Of a stretch of DNA of 64,000 nucleotides, positions 7,940-50,450 are shown one piece after another. The stretch's first letter is position 1. Each line of letters opens with the position of its first letter. Source of the stretch: Phaseolus vulgaris (taxonomy: Eukaryota; Streptophyta; Magnoliopsida; Fabales; Fabaceae). Where the stretch lies: positions 6,200,815 to 6,264,814 of the forward strand of contig NC_023756.2 of the NCBI RefSeq assembly GCF_000499845.2, written 5' to 3'. The position numbers and the translations under genes were made by a program. A model generated the notes under the pieces. It saw nothing but the letters and a program-made list of their open reading frames with translations. It ran no database searches and had not been told where the DNA came from.

Positions 7940-10900
7940 TTAAGTATGGATAATACCAGCTAAGTTCAGGCAATGATCGAACTTAGCCGATGGAAGTGGC
8001 TTGGTGAACATGTCTGCAGGATTTTCGGTCGTATGAATTTTTTCAACAATTATATCTCCTGTATCAACAATGTCTCGGATAAAATGGTGTTTAATTTCAA
8101 TGTGCTTGGTCCTTGAGTGATACTTGCTGTTCCTGGTTAAGTGAACAACACTCCGACTATCACAAAATATAACAAGAACATCTTGTTGAAGATCAAGTTC
8201 ACATACCAAGCCTCGAAGCCATATAGCCTCTTTCATACCTTCTGTAGCAGCAATATATTATGCTTCAGTGGTGGACAAAACCGCAATGGCTTGAAGTGAA
8301 GAATACCAGCTGATAGCAGACCCACATAGGGTAAAGATGTAAGCTGAAAGTGACCTTCTCCGATCTAAATCACCACCATAGTCAGCATCAACATAGCCAA
8401 CTGCTCCTCCGAGATCGGCTCTATGTTGATCAAATACCAAACCAAGACCTGGAGACCTTTCAGATAACGAAGTATCCATTAACGGCTTCCCAATGTGCCT
8501 TGCCTGGATTATGCATGAACCTGCTAACAATGCTAACAACATAAGCTAAATAAGGTCTAGTACATACCATAGCATACATGAGACTTCCAATTGCATTTGA
8601 ATACGGGACATGTGACATGCGCCTTTTGTCCTCGTCTGATTTTGGACACTGATCTGATGACAACTTGAAGTGGGCGGCAATTGGAGTATTAACAGCTTTG
8701 CAATCTCGCATTCCAAATTTGTCAAGCATCTTAAGAACATACTTCTTTTGTGATAGAAAAAGTTTTCCAGCTTGACGATCTCTGTTGATCTCCATTCCCA
8801 AAATTTTCTTGGCAGGACCTAAGTCCTTCATATCAAATTCACTGCTAAGCTGAGCCTTTAACTTGTTAACTTAAAAATTTATCTCTTGCAGCAATCAACA
8901 TGTCATCAACATATAGCAACAAGTATACAAAAGACCCATCAAATGTCTTTTGAAAATAAACACAGTTATCATAGCTACTTTTGGAGTATCCATGTCCAAC
9001 CATGAAAGAATCAAACCTCTTATACCATTGTCTTGGTGATTGCTTCAAGCCGTAAAGAGATTTCTTCAAACGACATACATGGTTCTCCTTTCCAGGAACA
9101 ACGAAGCCCTCAGGTTGCTGGATGTAAATCTCTTCCTCAAGATTACCATGAAGAAAAGCAGTTTTCACATCTTTCTCTTGATCAAAACCTCTTACAACAA
9201 ATCTTGCTTTATTCCTTGTACTCTCAACACCAGGGATCCCTTCTTTTCTCTTAAAGATCCACTTGCAACTAATGACTCGTTTTCCTTCTGGTAACTTCAC
9301 CAATTCCCATGTTTCGTTTTTGAGAAGACTCTCAACTTCTTCTTGCATAGCAGCAATCCACTTTGTTGAGTCGTCACCAAAGATAGCTTCAGAGTAATTC
9401 TTGGGTTCACCTTCTTCACCCATCTCTTGTGCAATAGTTAAAGCATAAGCAATGTTGGCTGATTCTGCAATTAATCTTTGAGTCGGTTTTCCTAGTCTCT
9501 GTTGTGGAAGTTCTTGAGCCATAGACCATGGCTGTGGTAATCCTCGTCGTTTAGGTGGACATTGCTCATGTGGACTCAAATGTTCATTTGTACCATCAAT
9601 AACAGTGACTTGATCACCTTGAGTACTGGAGGAATTGGGAACGTCTTCCTCATGAGCGGGTGTTTTAATCTCAAACTCCACCTTCTCTCGAGCATCTTCC
9701 TGGTCACCTGTATCAATTGAGGAAATAACAGTATCTTTTACAGAAGAAAGCATAGCATTTTCATTAAATGTCACATTCCGAATGTGAATTACTTTATGAG
9801 ATTCTGGGTCATATAAACGATAGCCTTTAACCTCTGAGCCATAACCCAAGAAAATGCACTTCTTAGCACGAGGTTCTAATTTTCCCTCGTTTACATGAGA
9901 ATAAGCAGAGCAACCAAATATTTTAAGGTTAGAATAATCAACAGGGTTACCTGACCAAACTTCTTCTGGAATGTTGCAATCAATGGATCTGTTAGGAGAG
10001 CGGTTTATCAGATAACATGTCGTTGAAGCCGCTTCAGCCCAAACAGATTTGCTCAAACCAGAATGGGAGAACATGCAACGAACTCTCTCCAGGATAGTTC
10101 TATTCATTCTTTCTGCAACCCCGTTCTGTTGTGGAGTACTTGGGATGGTGAAGTGTTTGGAAATGCCTTCCTTCTTGCAGAAATCATTGAATTCATTCGA
10201 ACAGAACTCAAGGCCATTGTCTGTCCTTAACCTCTTTATCTTTTTGCCAGTCTGATTCTCAATCAATAATTTCCACTCTTTAAAAGTGGAAAATGCTTTA
10301 TTCTTATGTTTGAGAAAATACACCCACAGTTTTCGTGAGAAGTCATCAATAATTGTCATCATATAACGACATTTACCTCTCGAGGGAACTTTTGACGGAC
10401 CCCAAAGATCCGAATGAATATAATCCAAAGTACCTTTGGTTCTGTGTATGACTTTAGAAAAACTAACCTTTTTCTGCTTACCAAAAATGCAATGTTCACA
10501 GAAATCAACCTTTCCAGTACAGTGGTTACCAAGGTGACCCTTCTTCTTGAGGATTAGAATTCCCTTCTCACTCATGTGGCCTAATCTCATATGCCACAAC
10601 TTGGTGTTATCTTTGTTGGGTGAGGCAACAGCTGCAGAACCTGTAACTGTTGAACCCTACAGCACATACAAACTATCACATCGAATTGCCTTTAGTAACA
10701 CAAGAGCTCCTTTAGACACTTTTAAAACTCCACCTTCAGCTGAGTATCTACACCCATGAGATTCAAGGGTGCCTAAGGAAATGAGATTCCGTTTCAAATC
10801 AGGGAAATATCTGACACCTTTTAAAGTTCTAACAATTCCATCATGTGTCTTGATTTTGATTGTTCCTTCACCAACAACTTTGCATTGAGCATCGTTTCCC

Positions 10901-20394: not shown

Positions 20395-20506
20395 TAAAGG
20401 CCTTAATGAGATTTTCTGAATTATATGAAGCAAGTAAAAAAAAAACATCTAATCCATGGATATTTGAACCCAGTATCCGGAAAAAACAAAATATTTGATG
20501 GAAGAA
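20395..20506 (+). pseudogene. rpoB: plastid rpoB fragment in nuclear DNA, left part
   Basis: Reads RFSELYEASK, then NPWIFEP and, after a frame slip, GKNKIFDGR. These are consecutive motifs near the C-terminus of the plastid RNA polymerase beta subunit. The match continues exactly across the LINE, at 31913. The altered reading shows an old nuclear insertion of plastid DNA (NUPT), not a functional gene. Confidence 0.8.
20495..20506. repeat. target-site duplication of LINE 1 (left)
   Basis: TTGATGGAAGAA is identical to 31913-31924. It lies within rpoB sequence on both sides. Confidence 0.93.
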
Positions 20507-23275
20507 ACAAAAAGTGTGTTTGGTTGTGTGGAATCTTATAAAAGGCGCATTGAGATGGAAATTAAGAAATTAGACGGGGAGGATGACATTGATGCTTTAG
20601 AGGACGAGGGGAGATTGAGAAGAATGGATCTGCTCAGTCAATTGGGGTTGGTTAATAGAAAGTTAGAATCCATCTACAGGAAAAAAGCTAGAGTGAATTG
20701 GCTTAAACATGGGGACTTTAACTCCAAATTCTTCCATTCCGTGATTCGTTGGGGAAGGCTAAGAAATGAGGTCAAAGGAGTTGAGGTTAACACTCAGTGG
20801 TGTGAAGAACCGGAAGTTGTAAGGAGGGAAGCAAAGCTACTCTTTGAGAAGAGATTCATGGCTACGCAGGATTTTGGTGTAAATTTGGGTTCGGTGGAAT
20901 TCAGGTCGTTGACTTTGGAGGTAAGCAGAAAAATGGTTGCCAGCTTCACCGAGGAAGAAGTGAAGACTGCTGTATGGGATTGTGGAGGATCAAAAAGCCC
21001 GGGCCCGGATGGTTTCAATTTCAATTTTATTAAGAGTTGTTGGGAAGTGCTTAAGGCGGATGTTATGGCTGCAGTGCAACTTTTTCATATCACTGGTTCT
21101 CTTCCGAAAGGTTGCAATGCTTCCTTCATTGCGCTCATTCCCAAAGTAAGAGATCCGTCCTCGCTCGATCAATTCAGACCCATTTCTCTTGTAGGAGTAA
21201 TCTACAAGATTATTACTAAAGTTTTGTCAAGCCGTATGATGATTATAATGCCTTTAATCATTGACGAATGCCAGTCAGCCTTTATTTGTGGTAGAGGATT
21301 ATTGGACAGCGTTGTCATGGCTAATGAGGTCCTCGAGGATGTAAAGAGAAATGGGAAAAGCGGGGTGTGCTTTAAGGTGGATTTTGAAAAGGCATACGAC
21401 TCAGTGAGATGGAGTTTTTTGTTTGATATGCTTCACAGGCTAGGCTTCCATGACAAGTGGATCTCGTGGGTTAAAGGGTGCTTGGTTTCATCGTCAGTAT
21501 CTGTGTTGGTGAATGGGAGCCCTATGGAGGAATTCAAACCTTCCAGGGCGTTGAGACAGGGTGATCCAATGGCCCCGTTTCTTTTCTTAGTGGTTGTTGA
21601 AGGGTTAGCAGGTTTGGTCAGACAAGCGTTGAGAACGAATGTTCTTAGGGGTCTGAAGGTGGGAATAAACAAAGTCAAGTGTTGTTTGCTACAGTCTGCT
21701 GATGACACACTTTTTATGCGTGAGGATACCTTTGATAACATTTTTGCAATTAAGGTTATCCTTCGTTGCTACGAGATTGTATCGGGCTTGAAAGTTAATT
21801 TCCACAAGTCTAAATTGTCCGGTATTAAGGTGGATGGCTTTGCTTTGAGCACATATGCTAAAAGTCTGAATTGCAAAACGATGAAGCTTCCTTTCCAATA
21901 TCTGGGGGTTGAGATGGGTGGTAATCTGAGGAAGATACAGTTCTGGGATCAGGTTGTTAAAAAGGTCGAAGCCAAACTTAGCTCTTGGAAAGGGAGATTT
22001 CTATCAATGGCAGGACGAATCTGTTTGTTGAAATCGGTGTTCACTGCCATTCCTTTGTTTTACCTCTCGATATTCAAAGCCCCCGTAGCAGTGTACAATG
22101 AAATCAGTAGTATTCAGAGGAAGTTCTTATGGGCTTGGGGAAAACAGAGCAAGTCGATTTCTTGGGTTAGCTGGGATAATGTGTGTAAGCCTCTAGAGTT
22201 AGGAGGTTTGGGGGTGAAGGAAATGAAGAACTTTAATGTGGCCCTCCTGACAAAATGGAGATGGAGGCTCATGAGTAGTGAAGGAGGCAAACGGAAAGAG
22301 ATTATCTCATCTAAATATGGCACTGTAGCAGAGAATATACAGCTTAGGTCGAAATACCAATCTTGGTGGTGGAAGGATCTCACTAAAATCTGCGGTGAAG
22401 GTGTGGAAGACGGTTGGTTCCAAAAGGCCATTGGGTGGAAAGTAGGAAACGGAGCCATAGTGAGATTGTGGGAGGATTTGTGTCTTGGGAATGATTGTCT
22501 TAGATCGGCGTATCCTAGACTATTTTCCTTGTCACTTGACCAAGGTAAAAGGGTGGGGGAGGTAGGAGTATGGGAAGAGACCAGCTGACGGTGGAATCTA
22601 AACTGGAGGAGGGATAGGTTTCAATGGGAGATGGATATGGAGGCAGACATGTTATCCAGACTAAGTACGGGTGTTTTGTGTAAGGATTCCTTTGACCAAC
22701 TTGTATGGAAGGGGGACCAGAAGGGTACGTTCTCGGTAAAGTCAGCATATTCTATGTTGGCTAATCACCAATGCTCAGCCGCAAAGGAAAGTGTGTTTAG
22801 TCTCCTATGGCAAGCTAAAGCCATGCCCAGAGTTCTGACTACATCTTGGAGAATCCTCATTGATAGAATTCCTAATAGAGTTAATTTGTTGAGAAGAGGT
22901 GTGCCTGTGACCTCAACCTGTTGTGCTCTTTGCAATCTGTCGGAGGAATCCTCTCAACACCTTTTTTTAGAATGCGGTTTTGCACAACAAGTATGGTCCC
23001 GGTGTTATAGGAGGATTGGTACTCTAGGTGTCCAAAATAAGGATCTCATGAACCACTTTATGAATTTTCATCTAATACATCTTTCCAGTAAACAGAACCA
23101 AATTTGGTTAGGTTTTTGGGCGGCTATCGTTAGCTGTATTTGGGAGCATAGGAACATAGTGGTCTTCAGACAAGGGGTGCCTGATTATGATGAGATTTTC
23201 CAGAACGCTCAGCTGCAGTCATGGTTATGGTTAAAGCATAAAACATCAGACTTTTCGTACGCCTTCTCTGACTGA
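20507..23275 (+). pseudogene. LINE ORF2: reverse transcriptase and zf-RVT (one stop, no endonuclease)
   Basis: Open from the truncation point to a TGA at 22586-22588, where a Trp codon is expected. It then continues in the same frame to 23275. RT motifs in order are SPGPDGFNFNFIK, FIALIPKV, QFRPISLVG, VDFEKAYDSVRW (near 21378), LRQGDPMAPFLF (near 21550) and the active-site box. That box reads QSADD (21692-21706), where L1-like RTs normally have F or Y before ADD. The zf-RVT domain CCALCNLSEESSQHLFLECG lies near 22920. The long open frame with one nonsense change shows recent inactivation. Confidence 0.93.
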
Positions 23276-35352: not shown

Positions 35353-35490
35353 GTAGAATTTATTAAGTTATAAACCATTCATCATTGCTTAAGTCAAACG
35401 ATACCAAATATGTTTTTTCAGGTTCATCATAACTTTCCCGCCAGTCACCCAACCAATGACACATCCCCTCTAAGTAGAATTTATTAAGTT
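35351..35490. repeat. 19-bp direct repeat at the F-box 3' end
   Basis: AAGTAGAATTTATTAAGTT occurs at 35351-35369 and 35472-35490. The outer copy supplies the stop codon that truncates the F-box protein. This suggests a template-switch join between gene and duplicated flank. Confidence 0.8.
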
Positions 35491-36987
35491 CTTCACACCT
35501 TGGATAAATATATATATCAGATTTAGGTTTCCTCCAAGAATTACTTCTTAGGCTATAAATCTCCCAGGATTCACTAATATCCCATTCTCCATAATCGTAG
35601 GTATCCTCAGTATCCTCATTTGGATAAAGAAATAATTGTCTAATTACCTTATAGTCATCTCTAGCACAATCATAGCCAAATCCAACATATCTAGAATAAG
35701 GGCACATAGAATCTGGTATATACTCAATTGGACTGGGAGGGATGATCTTAAATTCACCACTAGATGGATTCAATAAATACATAGTGCCTAATTCGTATGG
35801 GTGGAGGCAAATAATTCCATTAATGCTAGAAGAACCCAAAGTAAAATATCCAGAACAATGACCCTTTGGCCAATTTACTTTTTCCATATTTTGAAACGAC
35901 CTACCAGAAAGTGAAAATAAGGAGGAATTATCAGGTTGATCGAGGCATAGGAGGAGAGATGTATCGTCATAGTAAGAATGTTGGTTAGATATGAAATTAT
36001 TACGAAAAAGATCCATGAAATTAGAATTTTCAAGCAAGAGAGCCCATGATTTATGTAGGCATCCATATCTCTTAAGAGATTTCAAAGGTAGTTTGAAAAG
36101 AATGGAGAATGCAAGATCATCTGGTAAGTGATTCCCAAGCTTTTGAGCCACAAATTTATCGTACATGTCTTGGTTAGGCAACCAAATGTTAATGAGTTGC
36201 CAATGGTCTTTGTTGTTCTCATTCCAAAGGTAAATGGGATGGGTAATAAGTTGGCAATGTTTGCTAATAAGATTCTTTATGGTGGTCTCTTGCAAGTACT
36301 CCAACTGTTGACAACAATAAGTGAGCAAAAGAAATAACATAAAATATGGGAATGAATTAGTTTATGTACCTGGTTGTCCTTAAGGAAGAGGGTGATTTTG
36401 GTTCCCCTTGGGACTTGTTGGGCATTAATATCCTTGGTAATAATGAAAGGGGCACTAAGTTGAGATTCCAAAGTATATTGGTCATGGTCATTATGCTTAG
36501 TGGTGAGGATAACCTTCTCAGCAACCAGATAAGCAGAGTAAAAGCCAATACCCAAATGATCGACCAAATCTAAAACAAGCACATATGTCACATACTAGAA
36601 TTAATGAGCATGGAATGAAAATGAAAGTTGAACATCACCACCTACCTACCCATTTTGGTCATGCCAATACCATTGTCAATGATAGAAAGTGTTTTGTTAA
36701 CCTTGTGAGGGATCAATGTAATAATTAATTCATCATTTAAAACGCTATTGTTCATGAGCCTCTCAAATTTAATTTTATCCAAAGCCTGTGCATGCATACA
36801 TTAATCAATAACGATTAAAAAAAGAAATGTAAAAATAACGTATCAAATTTAATCGGCAACTTACGTTAGATGCATTGTTGATGAGTTCGCGAAGGAAGAT
36901 TTCTTCGTTCGAATAGAAAGTTTTGTTCATCACTCGCAACACCTCGCTCATCTCACCCTTCAATACCAACGTTACATCATTCGTCAT
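35363..36987 (-). CDS. HSP90 N-terminal domain fused to F-box/FBA protein (four exons, C-terminus truncated)
   Basis: Exons are 36987-36865, 36785-36650, 36569-36370 and 36304-35363. All introns are GT-AG and frame is kept through phases 0, 1 and 0, giving 466 residues. Residues 1-183 are HSP90-like: TFYSNEEIFLRELINNASN, LSIIDNGIGMTKM, FYSAYLVAEKVILTTKHND and RGTKITLFLKDNQLEYL. E34, N38 and D78 of the nucleotide site are kept. The conserved D after NAS is N41. About 28 residues (the ATP lid and first part of the GxxGxG loop) are missing between DLVDHLG and IGFYSAY. Residues ~211-255 are an F-box (LPDDLAFSILFKLPLKSLKR). The rest is an FBA-type substrate domain ending early at DEWFIT. An SCF adaptor carrying an HSP90 fold is the inferred product. 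A chimeric pseudogene is the alternative. Confidence 0.75.
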
Positions 36988-46624: not shown

Positions 46625-49600
46625 GAAGTTTGAGACCTAGTTTGCCACTAGCAGGCCACTCCACCTGATCTCCATCACCCTGGTGGGCATCCGTGAGGAG
46701 AAGGGAAAGTCACTAAGAACCTTTGTTGATAGGTTCAACAAAGTGGCAATGAGCATTCAGAATCTCAGCCCAGATGTTGCCATGCATCATATGTTGACTA
46801 CTCTGCGCCCAGGACTGTTTGCTAATAACTTGTGTATGCAGCCAGCCACCAGCCTGGACAAGCTCAGGAAGAAAGCTGCCAAGTTCATGCAGCTAGAGGA
46901 ACTCAGGGAGTTTCACAACCAGGCCCGTGCCGAAACCAACAAAGAGAAAAGCAAGGAAGAGAAGGACCTCCAAGGTTGATCAGGTCAATGGGGTGACAGA
47001 CGCATAAATAATAGGGACCGAGGAATTTGATTCTCAAGATACCCCGCTAACAGTCGACAGGGGAAGAATCCTGGACGAGGCACTCAACGTCGAGTTAATC
47101 CCTCCTCCCAGGAAGATGGCCAACCCAAACAACGTCAACCGAAGGAAGCAGTGTCGGTATCATCAAAACAGCGTACAGTCCACTAGGGAATGCCAGGCTT
47201 TGAAAGACAAAATTGAGGAACTCATTCAGGTCGGGCACCTACGTTAGTTCATCAGAAATGGCCAAGACGTAGGGCGCTCACCTCGCAGAGAAGAACACTC
47301 TAAGAGAAGAAGATCGCCTCCACGAACTCGAGATGATCGAGACTGCAGGGAAGACCGCCAATCTCGAAGAGACGACCCTCCCCGCAGGGATGACCCTCCC
47401 TGGGAGGCCGAAAGAAGAGGAAACTGAGAGGTTATCAACACCATAGTCAGCGACTTCGTCGGTGGAGGGAGTAGAAATAGCGCAAAAAAAAAATACCTTC
47501 GGACAATACACTAGGTAAACGCGGTAGCATTCTGACCAAGGATGCCACCCATCACCTTCACATATGACGACTTCAAAGGCGTAAACTATCGGCAAAACGA
47601 TCCCATGGTGATATCAGTCGATATAGACCGATTTACCATAAAAAAGACCCTTTTGGACCAAGGAAGCTCAATAGAGATCCTCTACTAGAAAACGTTTAAA
47701 GTTGTGAGGATAGCCGAGGCCGACATGGTGCCTTACGATGACCATGTGATCAGTTTCTCGGGCGAGAGGGTGGGAACAAAGGTGATGAGAATCAAATAAA
47801 GGAGGCTTTTATTAATGAAGGAAGAGGTCATTCACCTTCACATTTGAAGTTCTTCCTTCTAGTCTTCTCAAAATTAAAAGAAGACATAAAATAAAGAGAG
47901 AATCAAGCCTAAAGCCAAAGAAGTCTACAAGCTTTCAAGAATGGGCTTCAATTAAATATCTCTCTTTATAGTTTCTTTTAAATTGTAAATAATATAGAAA
48001 AGTGTTTAGAAAGGTGCTTAGAGGGAAACATAAGACACCTCTTTTGTAAAAGCATCTTTAGGTTTTTAGTTTAGGAAAATTATAGGAAGCTTGGGGGGTG
48101 TGAGCTTAGTAAAGGAGTGTAGACGTAATAGGGAGGTGCCAAACTAAGAAAGGAAGTCACACCTTCCTCATGCTCTAAGTTGGCGCCACTTTTATGTCAT
48201 TTAGGGGGTAATTTGAGTTTAATTAGCTTTTCATTTCAGCACCTCTTAGGCTATTAATAAAGGTGCTTGCCTTTGTAAAAATCATATTTGAATTTTGAAT
48301 TAGAGAAACTCTACTCAATTTGAGAGAGAATTGGAGAGCTTTGTGCCTTCCTCACTTAGTCTTATCTTGAGAGTTCTTGATTACCTCAAGTGGCGGCATA
48401 GCACACTCATCTTGGAGTCTTCATCCTCTAAGTGGCGTGATCATCCAACCAATCCCTCCATCTTCACGAGCTTTCTCTTCTCCTTCCTTCCTTCTCCTTT
48501 TATGTTCATGTCATAGCTTGTGTTCTTTGCATTTTCAGTTCGGTATTCTAGTTTCCTTTGCTGTTTTGCTTCGGTTCCTTTTTACATTTTTTGTTCCTCT
48601 TTGCTTCTTCTTCATTTCTAGTTGCTGTTTTGATTCAATTGACAATACATGGATCTTCCAAATGAGTTTGGCGTTTGGAGCAAGTTTTGGTGAGTTCTTG
48701 AAACATAGAACATTGATCCAATTCTACTAAAAGTGCCTAAGCTATCTCCAACTCAAGTTGATTCCATAGAATGTCAAAGAATATCTCTTCTTTGCTATTA
48801 GATTCATATCACAAGGGCTACATCAAGGTCTACACCACCTTCGGTCAAGAGAAAAACTGCAAGACGATAAGGATCTGGTATCTGGTCATTGATGCCAATA
48901 CCTCTTACAACATTCTATTCGCACGACGGTCCATTAACCAGCTAATGGAAATCGTATCGATACCTCACCTAACAATGAAGTTCCCTTCACCAATGGGGGA
49001 TATTCTTACGGTTCATGTCGACCAGAAAGGGGCAAGAGAGTGCTACGCCGAAAGCCTCAGATTGGAACCTTTGAGGAACGATGTCTCTCCCAAGAGAAAA
49101 TCCTCTTGGAAGGACCGTGCATCCCGGGAAGCCCAACCGATGTTAGTAGAGCCAATTGTTGCGTTGGTAGACCTGGACCCACGGGCGACTGAAGATAGGC
49201 TGGAGGCCAGAGAAGAAATGAGACGAGTACCTCTTCTGGACGAGGAACGCAATACTGCTGTTGGAACGGCCATGGTAGCAGTCGAGGTAATGCATGTCGT
49301 GCTAAAGAAGAATATAGATCTATTTGCGTGGACACCGTCTGAGATGCCAGGCGTAAGCCTGTACATCATTACTCACAGGCTGTCAGTGTTTAAGGAAGCA
49401 CGGTCGATCACCCAGAAGAAGAGGGATTACTGCGATGAGAAGCGCCTAGTAGCAAAAGTAGAAGTCGAGAAGCTTCTATCAGTCAGGTTCATATGTGAAG
49501 CCCTGTACACCACCTGGCTGGCCAATGTCGTCATGGTCACCAAGTCGAACGGTAACTGGAGGATGTGTGTCGACTACAGAAACCACAATAGCGCCTGTCC

Positions 49601-50450
49601 GAAAGACTCTTACCCTTTACCGAACATCGACCATCTGGTAGATGGGGTGGTCGACCACAAAATCCTGAGCTTCCTGGATGCTTATTCTGGCTATAACCAG
49701 ATAAGTATGCACCCCAAGGAGAAAGAGAAGACGGTCTTCATGACGACCGATGCCAATTATTATTATGAGGTCACGCCGTTCAGCCTCAAGAACGGAGGGG
49801 CAACCTACTAACGCCTCATGGACAAAATCTTCCCAGGGCTGATTGACTGGTGTTTAGAGGTATATGTCGATGACATCATGGCGAAGTCCGACTCTTTCAA
49901 CCAACATGTGGAAGACCTCGAGGAGGTGTTCAAATCCCTCAATGGGGCCAGTATGAAGGTCAACCCGGAGAAGTGGATATTCGAGGTTGAGGGAGGGAAG
50001 TTCCGGGGTTTCATGCTAACCCATAGGGGGATAGAGGCCAACCCCGACAAATGCCAAGCCATTGTCGACATGAGAAGTGCGAAGAATATCAAGGAGGTGC
50101 AACAACTCCTAGGACGCCTGACAGCCCTTTCCAAGTATGAACCTCGGCTAGCCGAGAGAATGAAACCGATGGTGCAACTGTTTCGGAAAGCAACCAAGTT
50201 CAACTGGGACGATAGATGCGAAGAAATCGTCAAGCAAATGAAGGATTTTCTAACATCACCATCGGTCATACAAAATTTGAGACCCAATAAGGCCATCCTG
50301 GTGTATTTGGCGGTCTTAGAGGAGGCAATCAGTGTTGCGTTAGTATAGGAGGTTGAAAACGAGGAACGACCGATATACTTCGTCAGTTAGATGCTGCATG
50401 CGGCTGAGACGAGGTATCAGATGATCGAAAAGGTGGCGCAAGCTTCCTAT
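46625..50450 (+). pseudogene. Ty3/gypsy (Tat-like) gag-pol remnant
   Basis: The gag domain is at 46683-46979 (EEKGKSLRTFVDRFNKVA, MHHMLTTLRPGLF). A frame-broken linker follows. The protease region has ITFTYDDFKGVNYRQNDPM and TLLDQGSSIEILY (near 47655), then a stop at 47686. After the solo LTR, the protease tail (YIKVYTTFGQEKNCKTIRIW) and RT continue: NGNWRMCVDYRNHNSACPKD, LDAYSGYNQISMHPKEKEK, a stop at 49811, and YVDDIMAKSDSF (near 49862). Stops at 50346 and 50388 and a break near 50450 end it before RNase H. No LTR was found on either side. Confidence 0.9.
47783..48811 (+). repeat. solo LTR, family S (copy 4), inside gypsy protease
   Basis: TGATGAGAATC ... GATTCATATCA (1029 bp). It splits the protease coding sequence between GERVGTK and GYIKVYTTFG. 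The flanks AAAGG (47778-47782) and CAAGG (48812-48816) fit a 5-bp duplication with one change. Confidence 0.88.

Follow-up and report, generated by a model that had tools for sequence, protein, structure and literature searches.

The gene described here lies on the minus strand of a 64,000-nucleotide stretch of the common bean genome (Phaseolus vulgaris, contig NC_023756.2, denoted C4 in locus positions, 6,200,815 to 6,264,814; the whole stretch is called the window below) and reads from the N-terminal domain of HSP90 into an F-box/FBA protein. Among described systems, cytosolic plant HSP90 (HSP83/HSP90; PF02518/PF13589 and PF00183) shares with it the N-domain fold and the GHKL pocket motifs, and the bean HSP90 gene at C4:37.56 Mb has the same three intron positions; the fusions differ in that F-box/FBA sequence stands in place of the entire C-domain and of all but a small part of the middle domain, and in Phaseolus and Vigna the ATP lid is missing as well. 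Legume CPR1-like F-box/FBA proteins, which carry names such as F-box/kelch-repeat At3g06240-like, belong to a large, fast-turning family and share the single-exon F-box followed by FBA, but the known members have no HSP90 domain. SGT1, the co-chaperone bridging HSP90 and SKP1, likewise unites HSP90 with components of the SCF (SKP1-CUL1-F-box) ligase; it is an adaptor in its own right, built of TPR, CS and SGS domains, whereas the fusion holds its HSP90 piece covalently within the F-box protein. Decisions between folding and degradation fall to HSP90 and SCF ligases jointly, and SGT1 bridges both in plant immunity. For common bean, six HSP90 genes have been reported, with HSP90 proteins of 648-818 residues over five legumes (PMC5066796; the extracts of that paper do not mention 'F-box'). 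No description of an HSP90–F-box fusion was found in the titles and abstract openings of the papers listed by one library of open-licence literature. Both halves belong to known families; their combination and its reduction are new to us.

Anatomy of the fused gene

One frame of 466 residues, from ATG to stop, is rebuilt from four exons with GT-AG junctions in compatible phases (Table 1), in agreement with the initial annotation, which had read an HSP90 ATPase domain into an F-box/FBA region from the sequence. The match to the HSP90 N-terminal domain extends from residue 1 to about 194, and FBA sequence follows the F-box. Pfam finds HATPase_c (30-150), HSP90 (155-186) and F-box (212-249) in this order, all below the curated cut-offs: PF00646 reaches 18.7 bits against a cut-off of 20.5, compared with 28.6, 28.6 and 33.3 bits in the related proteins P0018, P0019 and P0041, and relatives from Mucuna, Cajanus and Spatholobus pass the cut-offs of both HSP90 and F-box. 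FBA is not among the Pfam matches of the window copy, which is truncated; even in the full-length paralogue P0001 (595 residues), for which the database nonetheless lists FBA, FBA_1 scores 19.2 bits, under its cut-off of 21.1. The window protein has the N-terminal GHKL fold of the HSP90 family, and instead of entering a middle domain with the catalytic Arg and a C-terminal dimer domain its frame enters the F-box. The fusion at this locus is real. A chance join is excluded because 20 loci of the bean genome carry the HSP90–F-box order, ten of them with full-length frames and with HSP90 exons of exactly 123, 136 and 200 nt.

Homology to HSP90 continues into exon 4 (LEYLQETTIKNLISKHCQLITHPIYLWNENNKDHWQLINIW) and covers approximately its first 40 codons, the opening of the exon, LEYLQETTIKNLISKHCQLITHPIYLWNENN, being HSP90 sequence. 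The joint therefore lies inside exon 4, and the fusion was not made by a splice event. The initial annotation had tied its test of the fusion to the splice of exon 3 to exon 4; this is the wrong junction, HSP90 and F-box sharing exon 4, so that the in-frame architecture stands and its dependence on that splice does not. Since exon 4 itself begins as HSP90, the three introns are old HSP90 introns: two of them, the first and second, occur in the canonical HSP90 genes at C8, and L046, the HSP90 gene at C4:37.56 Mb, possesses all three, including LKEDQ|LEY. The joint is better visible in less reduced relatives, namely Spatholobus P0041 and soybean P0151, where HSP90 sequence continues past the charged linker as far as IWLRKPEETT (early middle domain) and is followed by GLQLQ.EME just upstream of the F-box. 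Relatives that lack HSP90 start with MNLLQFQAEMEKYF (P0158) and MKKSVSATN (P0129). Read together, these starts and joints show HSP90 coding sequence attached to an F-box gene at its start or in its 5' region; the original start Met of that gene seems to persist within the linker.

DNA homology of the window copy to the paralogous loci L024 and L026 (95.6-95.7%) ends at 35366, followed by a 19-bp copy of an internal segment and a stop codon. Residues equivalent to 467-595 of P0001 are missing, and full-length paralogue models comprise 592-613 residues (the L031 projection is cut at 597). The window copy is a C-terminally truncated family member, and its decay may be under way. The database protein of this locus, P0006, comprises the F-box part only.

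Table 1. Features of the fused gene, in window coordinates
Feature	Position	Strand	Description	Basis
Exon 1	36865..36987	-	123 nt; start of the HSP90 N-domain (MTND...INNASN); holds Glu and Asn of the GHKL N-box	frame, splice sites, residues
Exon 2	36650..36785	-	136 nt; HSP90 N-domain with the nucleotide-pocket motif SIIDNGIGMTK	frame, splice sites, residues
Exon 3	36370..36569	-	200 nt; HSP90 N-domain without ATP lid, DLVDHLG abutting IGFYSAY; last residues LKDNQ	frame, alignment
Exon 4	35363..36304	-	942 nt including stop; end of the HSP90 N-domain, linker, F-box, truncated FBA region	frame, Pfam
HSP90-derived portion of exon 4	36182..36304	-	LEYLQE...WQLINIW; fusion joint comes after it	alignment; computed coordinates
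Met of MYDKF	36164..36166	-	start of F-box-only database protein P0006; likely fossil start of the ancestral F-box gene	compare starts of P0158 and P0129
F-box	36017..36130	-	residues 212-249	PF00646, E 0.0017, below curated cut-off; computed coordinates
Truncated FBA region	35366..36016	-		alignment to P0001
19-bp copy of internal gene segment	35351..35369	-	at the truncation point	sequence comparison

A chimeric family in bean and its relatives

The initial annotation had described the fusion at this locus; the window copy proves to be one member of a multi-copy chimeric family of phaseoloid legumes with 20 loci in bean. Searching the genome with the HSP90 half yields 85 exon matches, grouped as 20 fused loci and three canonical HSP90 genes. 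The F-box half recovers the same 20 loci, 19 of them at 52-100% identity and the remaining one, at C4:3.67 Mb, through fragments that are 41% and 67% identical, and the next F-box loci show 26-33% identity. These counts are lower bounds (at least 20 fused loci). Nineteen loci are modelled by projection from L026; L037, with no match before residue 106, is excluded. Full-length frames with GT-AG or GC-AG sites are present in ten of the 20 (L026, L028, L031, L033, L034, L035, L038, L039, L041 and L043), and the three HSP90 exons have exactly the lengths given above in 15 of the 19 models. L026 encodes P0001, with 100% identity over the last 443 residues. Except for L037, which lacks exons 1-2, the genome search found no bean F-box copy of this subfamily apart from HSP90 exons. 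Public records are corrected by this result, as several bean members are stored as F-box proteins minus their HSP90 exons: P0044, P0045 and P0017 are annotated as F-box proteins, with HSP90 exons upstream at L035, L034 and L039, respectively. At one C6 locus (L042 and C6:12041724-12042869) the HSP90 exons are followed only after about 2.8 kb by most of the F-box, a gap that suggests an insertion splitting a fused copy.

The same domain order in related legumes had been named as a check on the fusion, and HSP90 plus F-box/FBA proteins are present in Vigna unguiculata, V. mungo, V. angularis, V. umbellata, Mucuna, Cajanus, Spatholobus and Glycine. By BLAST, 28 of 138 fetched proteins chosen by the word F-box contain an HSP90 N-domain match, and those with a species name come only from these phaseoloid genera or bean. 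Among the best 120 matches per search, those from Cicer, Trifolium, Medicago, Vicia, Lathyrus and Lotus are F-box-only or plain HSP90. The family is likely absent outside phaseoloid legumes; this is unproven because the matches are the best 120 per search and because, as in bean, F-box-only entries can hide unannotated HSP90 exons.

In the tree of the HSP90 half, based on a clean N-domain cut, 12 fusions fall on one side of a branch with support 100/98, against 24 canonical sequences, and Spatholobus joins nearest to canonical HSP90; an earlier tree with rows running into the F-box or linker gives the same grouping. In the tree of the F-box half, 14 fusions fall on one side, against 22 others, with support 84/95, which is under the tool's star. 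This tree omits P0043, a protein annotated without HSP90; it was dropped by judgement, because the similarly annotated P0044, P0045 and P0017 proved to have HSP90 exons in the genome. By these trees the copies share ancestry in both halves, and there was apparently one fusion event in an ancestor of these genera, followed by multiplication of the chimera as a unit.

In the database, some fusion members go under 'molecular chaperone HtpG' and some under 'Heat shock protein 83'. P0129, P0135, P0137, P0150 and others, JGI F-box proteins without an HSP90 part, also bear the name 'molecular chaperone HtpG', which has probably spilled over from fusion proteins so named. P0054 (Sphenostylis) has a lid-less HSP90 N-domain followed by low-complexity repeats in place of the F-box and is possibly a misprediction. 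P0151 (Glycine max) combines the tail of HSP90 with a degraded F-box/FBA, and its C-terminus holds the start of a second F-box, like two copies run together.

Lid, nucleotide pocket and selection

The clean absence of the ATP lid noted in the initial annotation amounts, in the alignment, to 27 residues (81 bp) gone between DLVDHLG and IGFYSAY in the window copy, and the lid is also gone in the aligned Phaseolus and Vigna rows. Cajanus and P0026 retain the remnant LGRSSQLG, Mucuna a different remnant and Spatholobus nearly the whole lid; by alignment, lid and charged linker are trimmed or lost differently from genus to genus. TTGG occurs at both edges of the lid deletion in the two C8 HSP90 genes; no microhomology is claimed, because the parent-type gene L046 has only GGT there.

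Residue conservation was scored over 27 fusions, made up of the ten intact bean loci and 17 database proteins; partial proteins (among them P0026, P0151 and P0155) and the window copy do not enter the count. Asp81, Gly85 and Thr173 are kept in all 27, Glu35 and Asn39 in 25 each, and Asp42 in seven, its site being occupied by Asn in 19 and by Lys in one. The Asn in place of the Asp after NAS, also noted earlier, is thus true of the window copy and not special to it. The catalytic Glu, the Mg-binding Asn and the pocket Asp are all present in the window copy. A set of 14 pocket positions is kept at 0.89, versus 0.65 for positions invariant in canonical HSP90 (P 0.0016, and P 0.0018 when matched by residue type); the first pocket list omitted the mutated Asp42, and the test was repeated on a fuller list including it. 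Apart from N39 and D42, the listed positions are those we take to be pocket contacts. These two are named as contacts in the extracts of PMC2935968. The earlier suggestion of nucleotide binding without cycling is consistent with this alignment, in which the pocket residues are kept and there is no lid, no C-domain and almost no middle domain. A structure model of P0124, computed from an alignment that held canonical HSP90s, has the N-domain fold without lid, with block predicted local distance difference test (pLDDT) values of 65-94 over residues 21-190; its F-box end, below pLDDT 50, is uninformative. A fold of P0001 with 15 fusions is unusable in the N-half (pLDDT 24-37).

A separate measurement of the nonsynonymous to synonymous rate ratio (omega) on both halves, likewise proposed at the outset, finds the HSP90 half constrained. 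By codon maximum likelihood across the ten intact bean copies, omega is 0.44 in the HSP90 half (twice the log-likelihood difference from omega 1, 33.9), 0.60 in linker and F-box (4.6), 0.75 in FBA (6.1) and 1.02 at the FBA end (0.0), with kappa under the null taken from a coarse grid. Five recent copies (the C4:6-9 Mb/C256 group) give 0.55 (5.0) for the HSP90 half, 0.92 (0.0) for linker and F-box and 1.43 (2.3, not significant) for FBA; with the window copy added, the HSP90 half remains at 0.57 (4.9). The HSP90 half is under purifying selection.

P0026, which shares 81% identity with Cajanus P0019 and is encoded on a 2319-nt 'lgn' contig, is spliced where exon 2 meets exon 3 and exon 3 meets exon 4. 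The same source has canonical HSP90 proteins (693-704 residues) whose contigs measure 2.2-2.7 kb, a size that fits complementary DNA because the three bean HSP90 genes have introns; the P0026 contig would accordingly represent a transcript. A heat-shock promoter inherited from HSP90 was considered and rejected: the 700 bp preceding the window copy and each of 11 further fusions contain no heat-shock element, their best sites matching 6-7 of 9 core bases, a level that shuffled sequences also reach. The three canonical HSP90 genes reach 8 of 9, which is itself not significant (P 0.165-0.195).

Proposed function and alternatives

On balance we favour a chimeric family of SCF adaptors with a static, probably nucleotide-binding HSP90 module, an explanation that we hold to be somewhat better than even and whose anatomy and history are far surer than its function. 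The 5' exons of a cytosolic HSP90 gene, encoding the N-domain, the charged linker and the first middle-domain residues, would have been attached, in frame, where a CPR1-like F-box/FBA gene begins. The F-box would bind SKP1 as an SCF adaptor, the faster-evolving FBA region would select the substrate, and the HSP90-derived domain would act as a docking or sensing module steering the ligase; binding of clients and the adaptor role are both inferred. HSP90-like ATPase turnover is very unlikely on sequence grounds, because there is no lid, no catalytic Arg of the middle domain and no C-terminal dimer domain. Keeping the pocket and dropping the lid in more than one way makes the family a natural experiment on an HSP90 N-domain freed from the ATPase cycle. 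A bolder version is doubtful: that these proteins are the phaseoloid legumes' own class of ubiquitin-ligase adaptor, in which the lid-less domain, binding nucleotide without hydrolysing it, serves as a receptor and delivers clients or co-chaperones of HSP90 to SCF, so that chaperone recognition would be linked to degradation with no need of the HSP90 cycle, and FBA diversifies by birth and death.

Several observations weigh against the favoured explanation. The window copy misses the FBA end, and ten of the 20 bean loci are broken, truncated or incomplete. In Mucuna pruriens P0018 and P0048, Lys occupies the catalytic Glu and Mg-binding Asn sites, and the pocket is lost there. Pocket residues double as fold-core residues, so that fold constraint may explain part of the conservation signal, and the canonical HSP90s in the P0124 alignment favour the fold. 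The F-box tree falls short of the tool's star, and its earlier version, with P0043 inside the fused group, rejected one clade.

The leading alternative is one that we think improbable: the HSP90 half may be a passenger that supplies promoter, start codon and a folded N-terminus, only F-box/FBA being functional. The erosion of lid, linker and pocket, which differs by genus, would fit a passenger, as would the loss of Asp42 in 20 of 27 fusions, known co-chaperone faces conserved no more than background and the broken half of the bean copies; yet omega is lower in the HSP90 half than in the F-box and FBA, the catalytic Glu and Asn persist in 25 of 27 fusions and Asp81 and Thr173 in all, and L037 is the sole bean F-box copy found without its first HSP90 exons.

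A built-in SGT1/RAR1 dock, by which the HSP90 N-domain would bring NLR-SGT1 complexes to a CPR1-like SCF ligase and tune immune-receptor levels, is decidedly less likely. CPR1 targets NLRs, and SGT1 has HSP90, SKP1 and NLR immune receptors as binding partners. The name 'CPR1-like' is borne by relatives of the F-box half, and loop 141-148 keeps K, N, D, Q and Y in 24-27 of 27 fusions. The HSP90 N-domain is the very domain bound by SGT1-CS and RAR1-CHORDII, and SGT1 can hold HSP90 and SKP1 at once, according to the extracts of PMC2935968. Against such a dock, conservation at published contact positions is 0.58 for the SGT1 face and 0.54 for the RAR1 face, versus a background of 0.65, and most fusions have lost Asp42, the residue that holds the RAR1 loop; in the alignment the SGT1/RAR1 link has no support from docking-face conservation.

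A mis-joining of two neighbouring genes or a pseudogene, with the F-box gene starting at MYDKF and the HSP90 exons a relic, would suit the F-box-only P0006 and the truncated window copy, but is most improbable given the single uninterrupted exon 4 frame with HSP90 homology and F-box, the recurrence of domain order and exon lengths in ten full-length copies, database models covering both halves in several species and the splicing of P0026 across two introns.

An Rfam scan of the window gives no match. The gene sits in repeat-rich DNA, and long open reading frames at window positions 8869-10656 (-), 20468-22585 (+) and 48762-49808 (+) resemble, by their motifs, proteins of retrotransposons.
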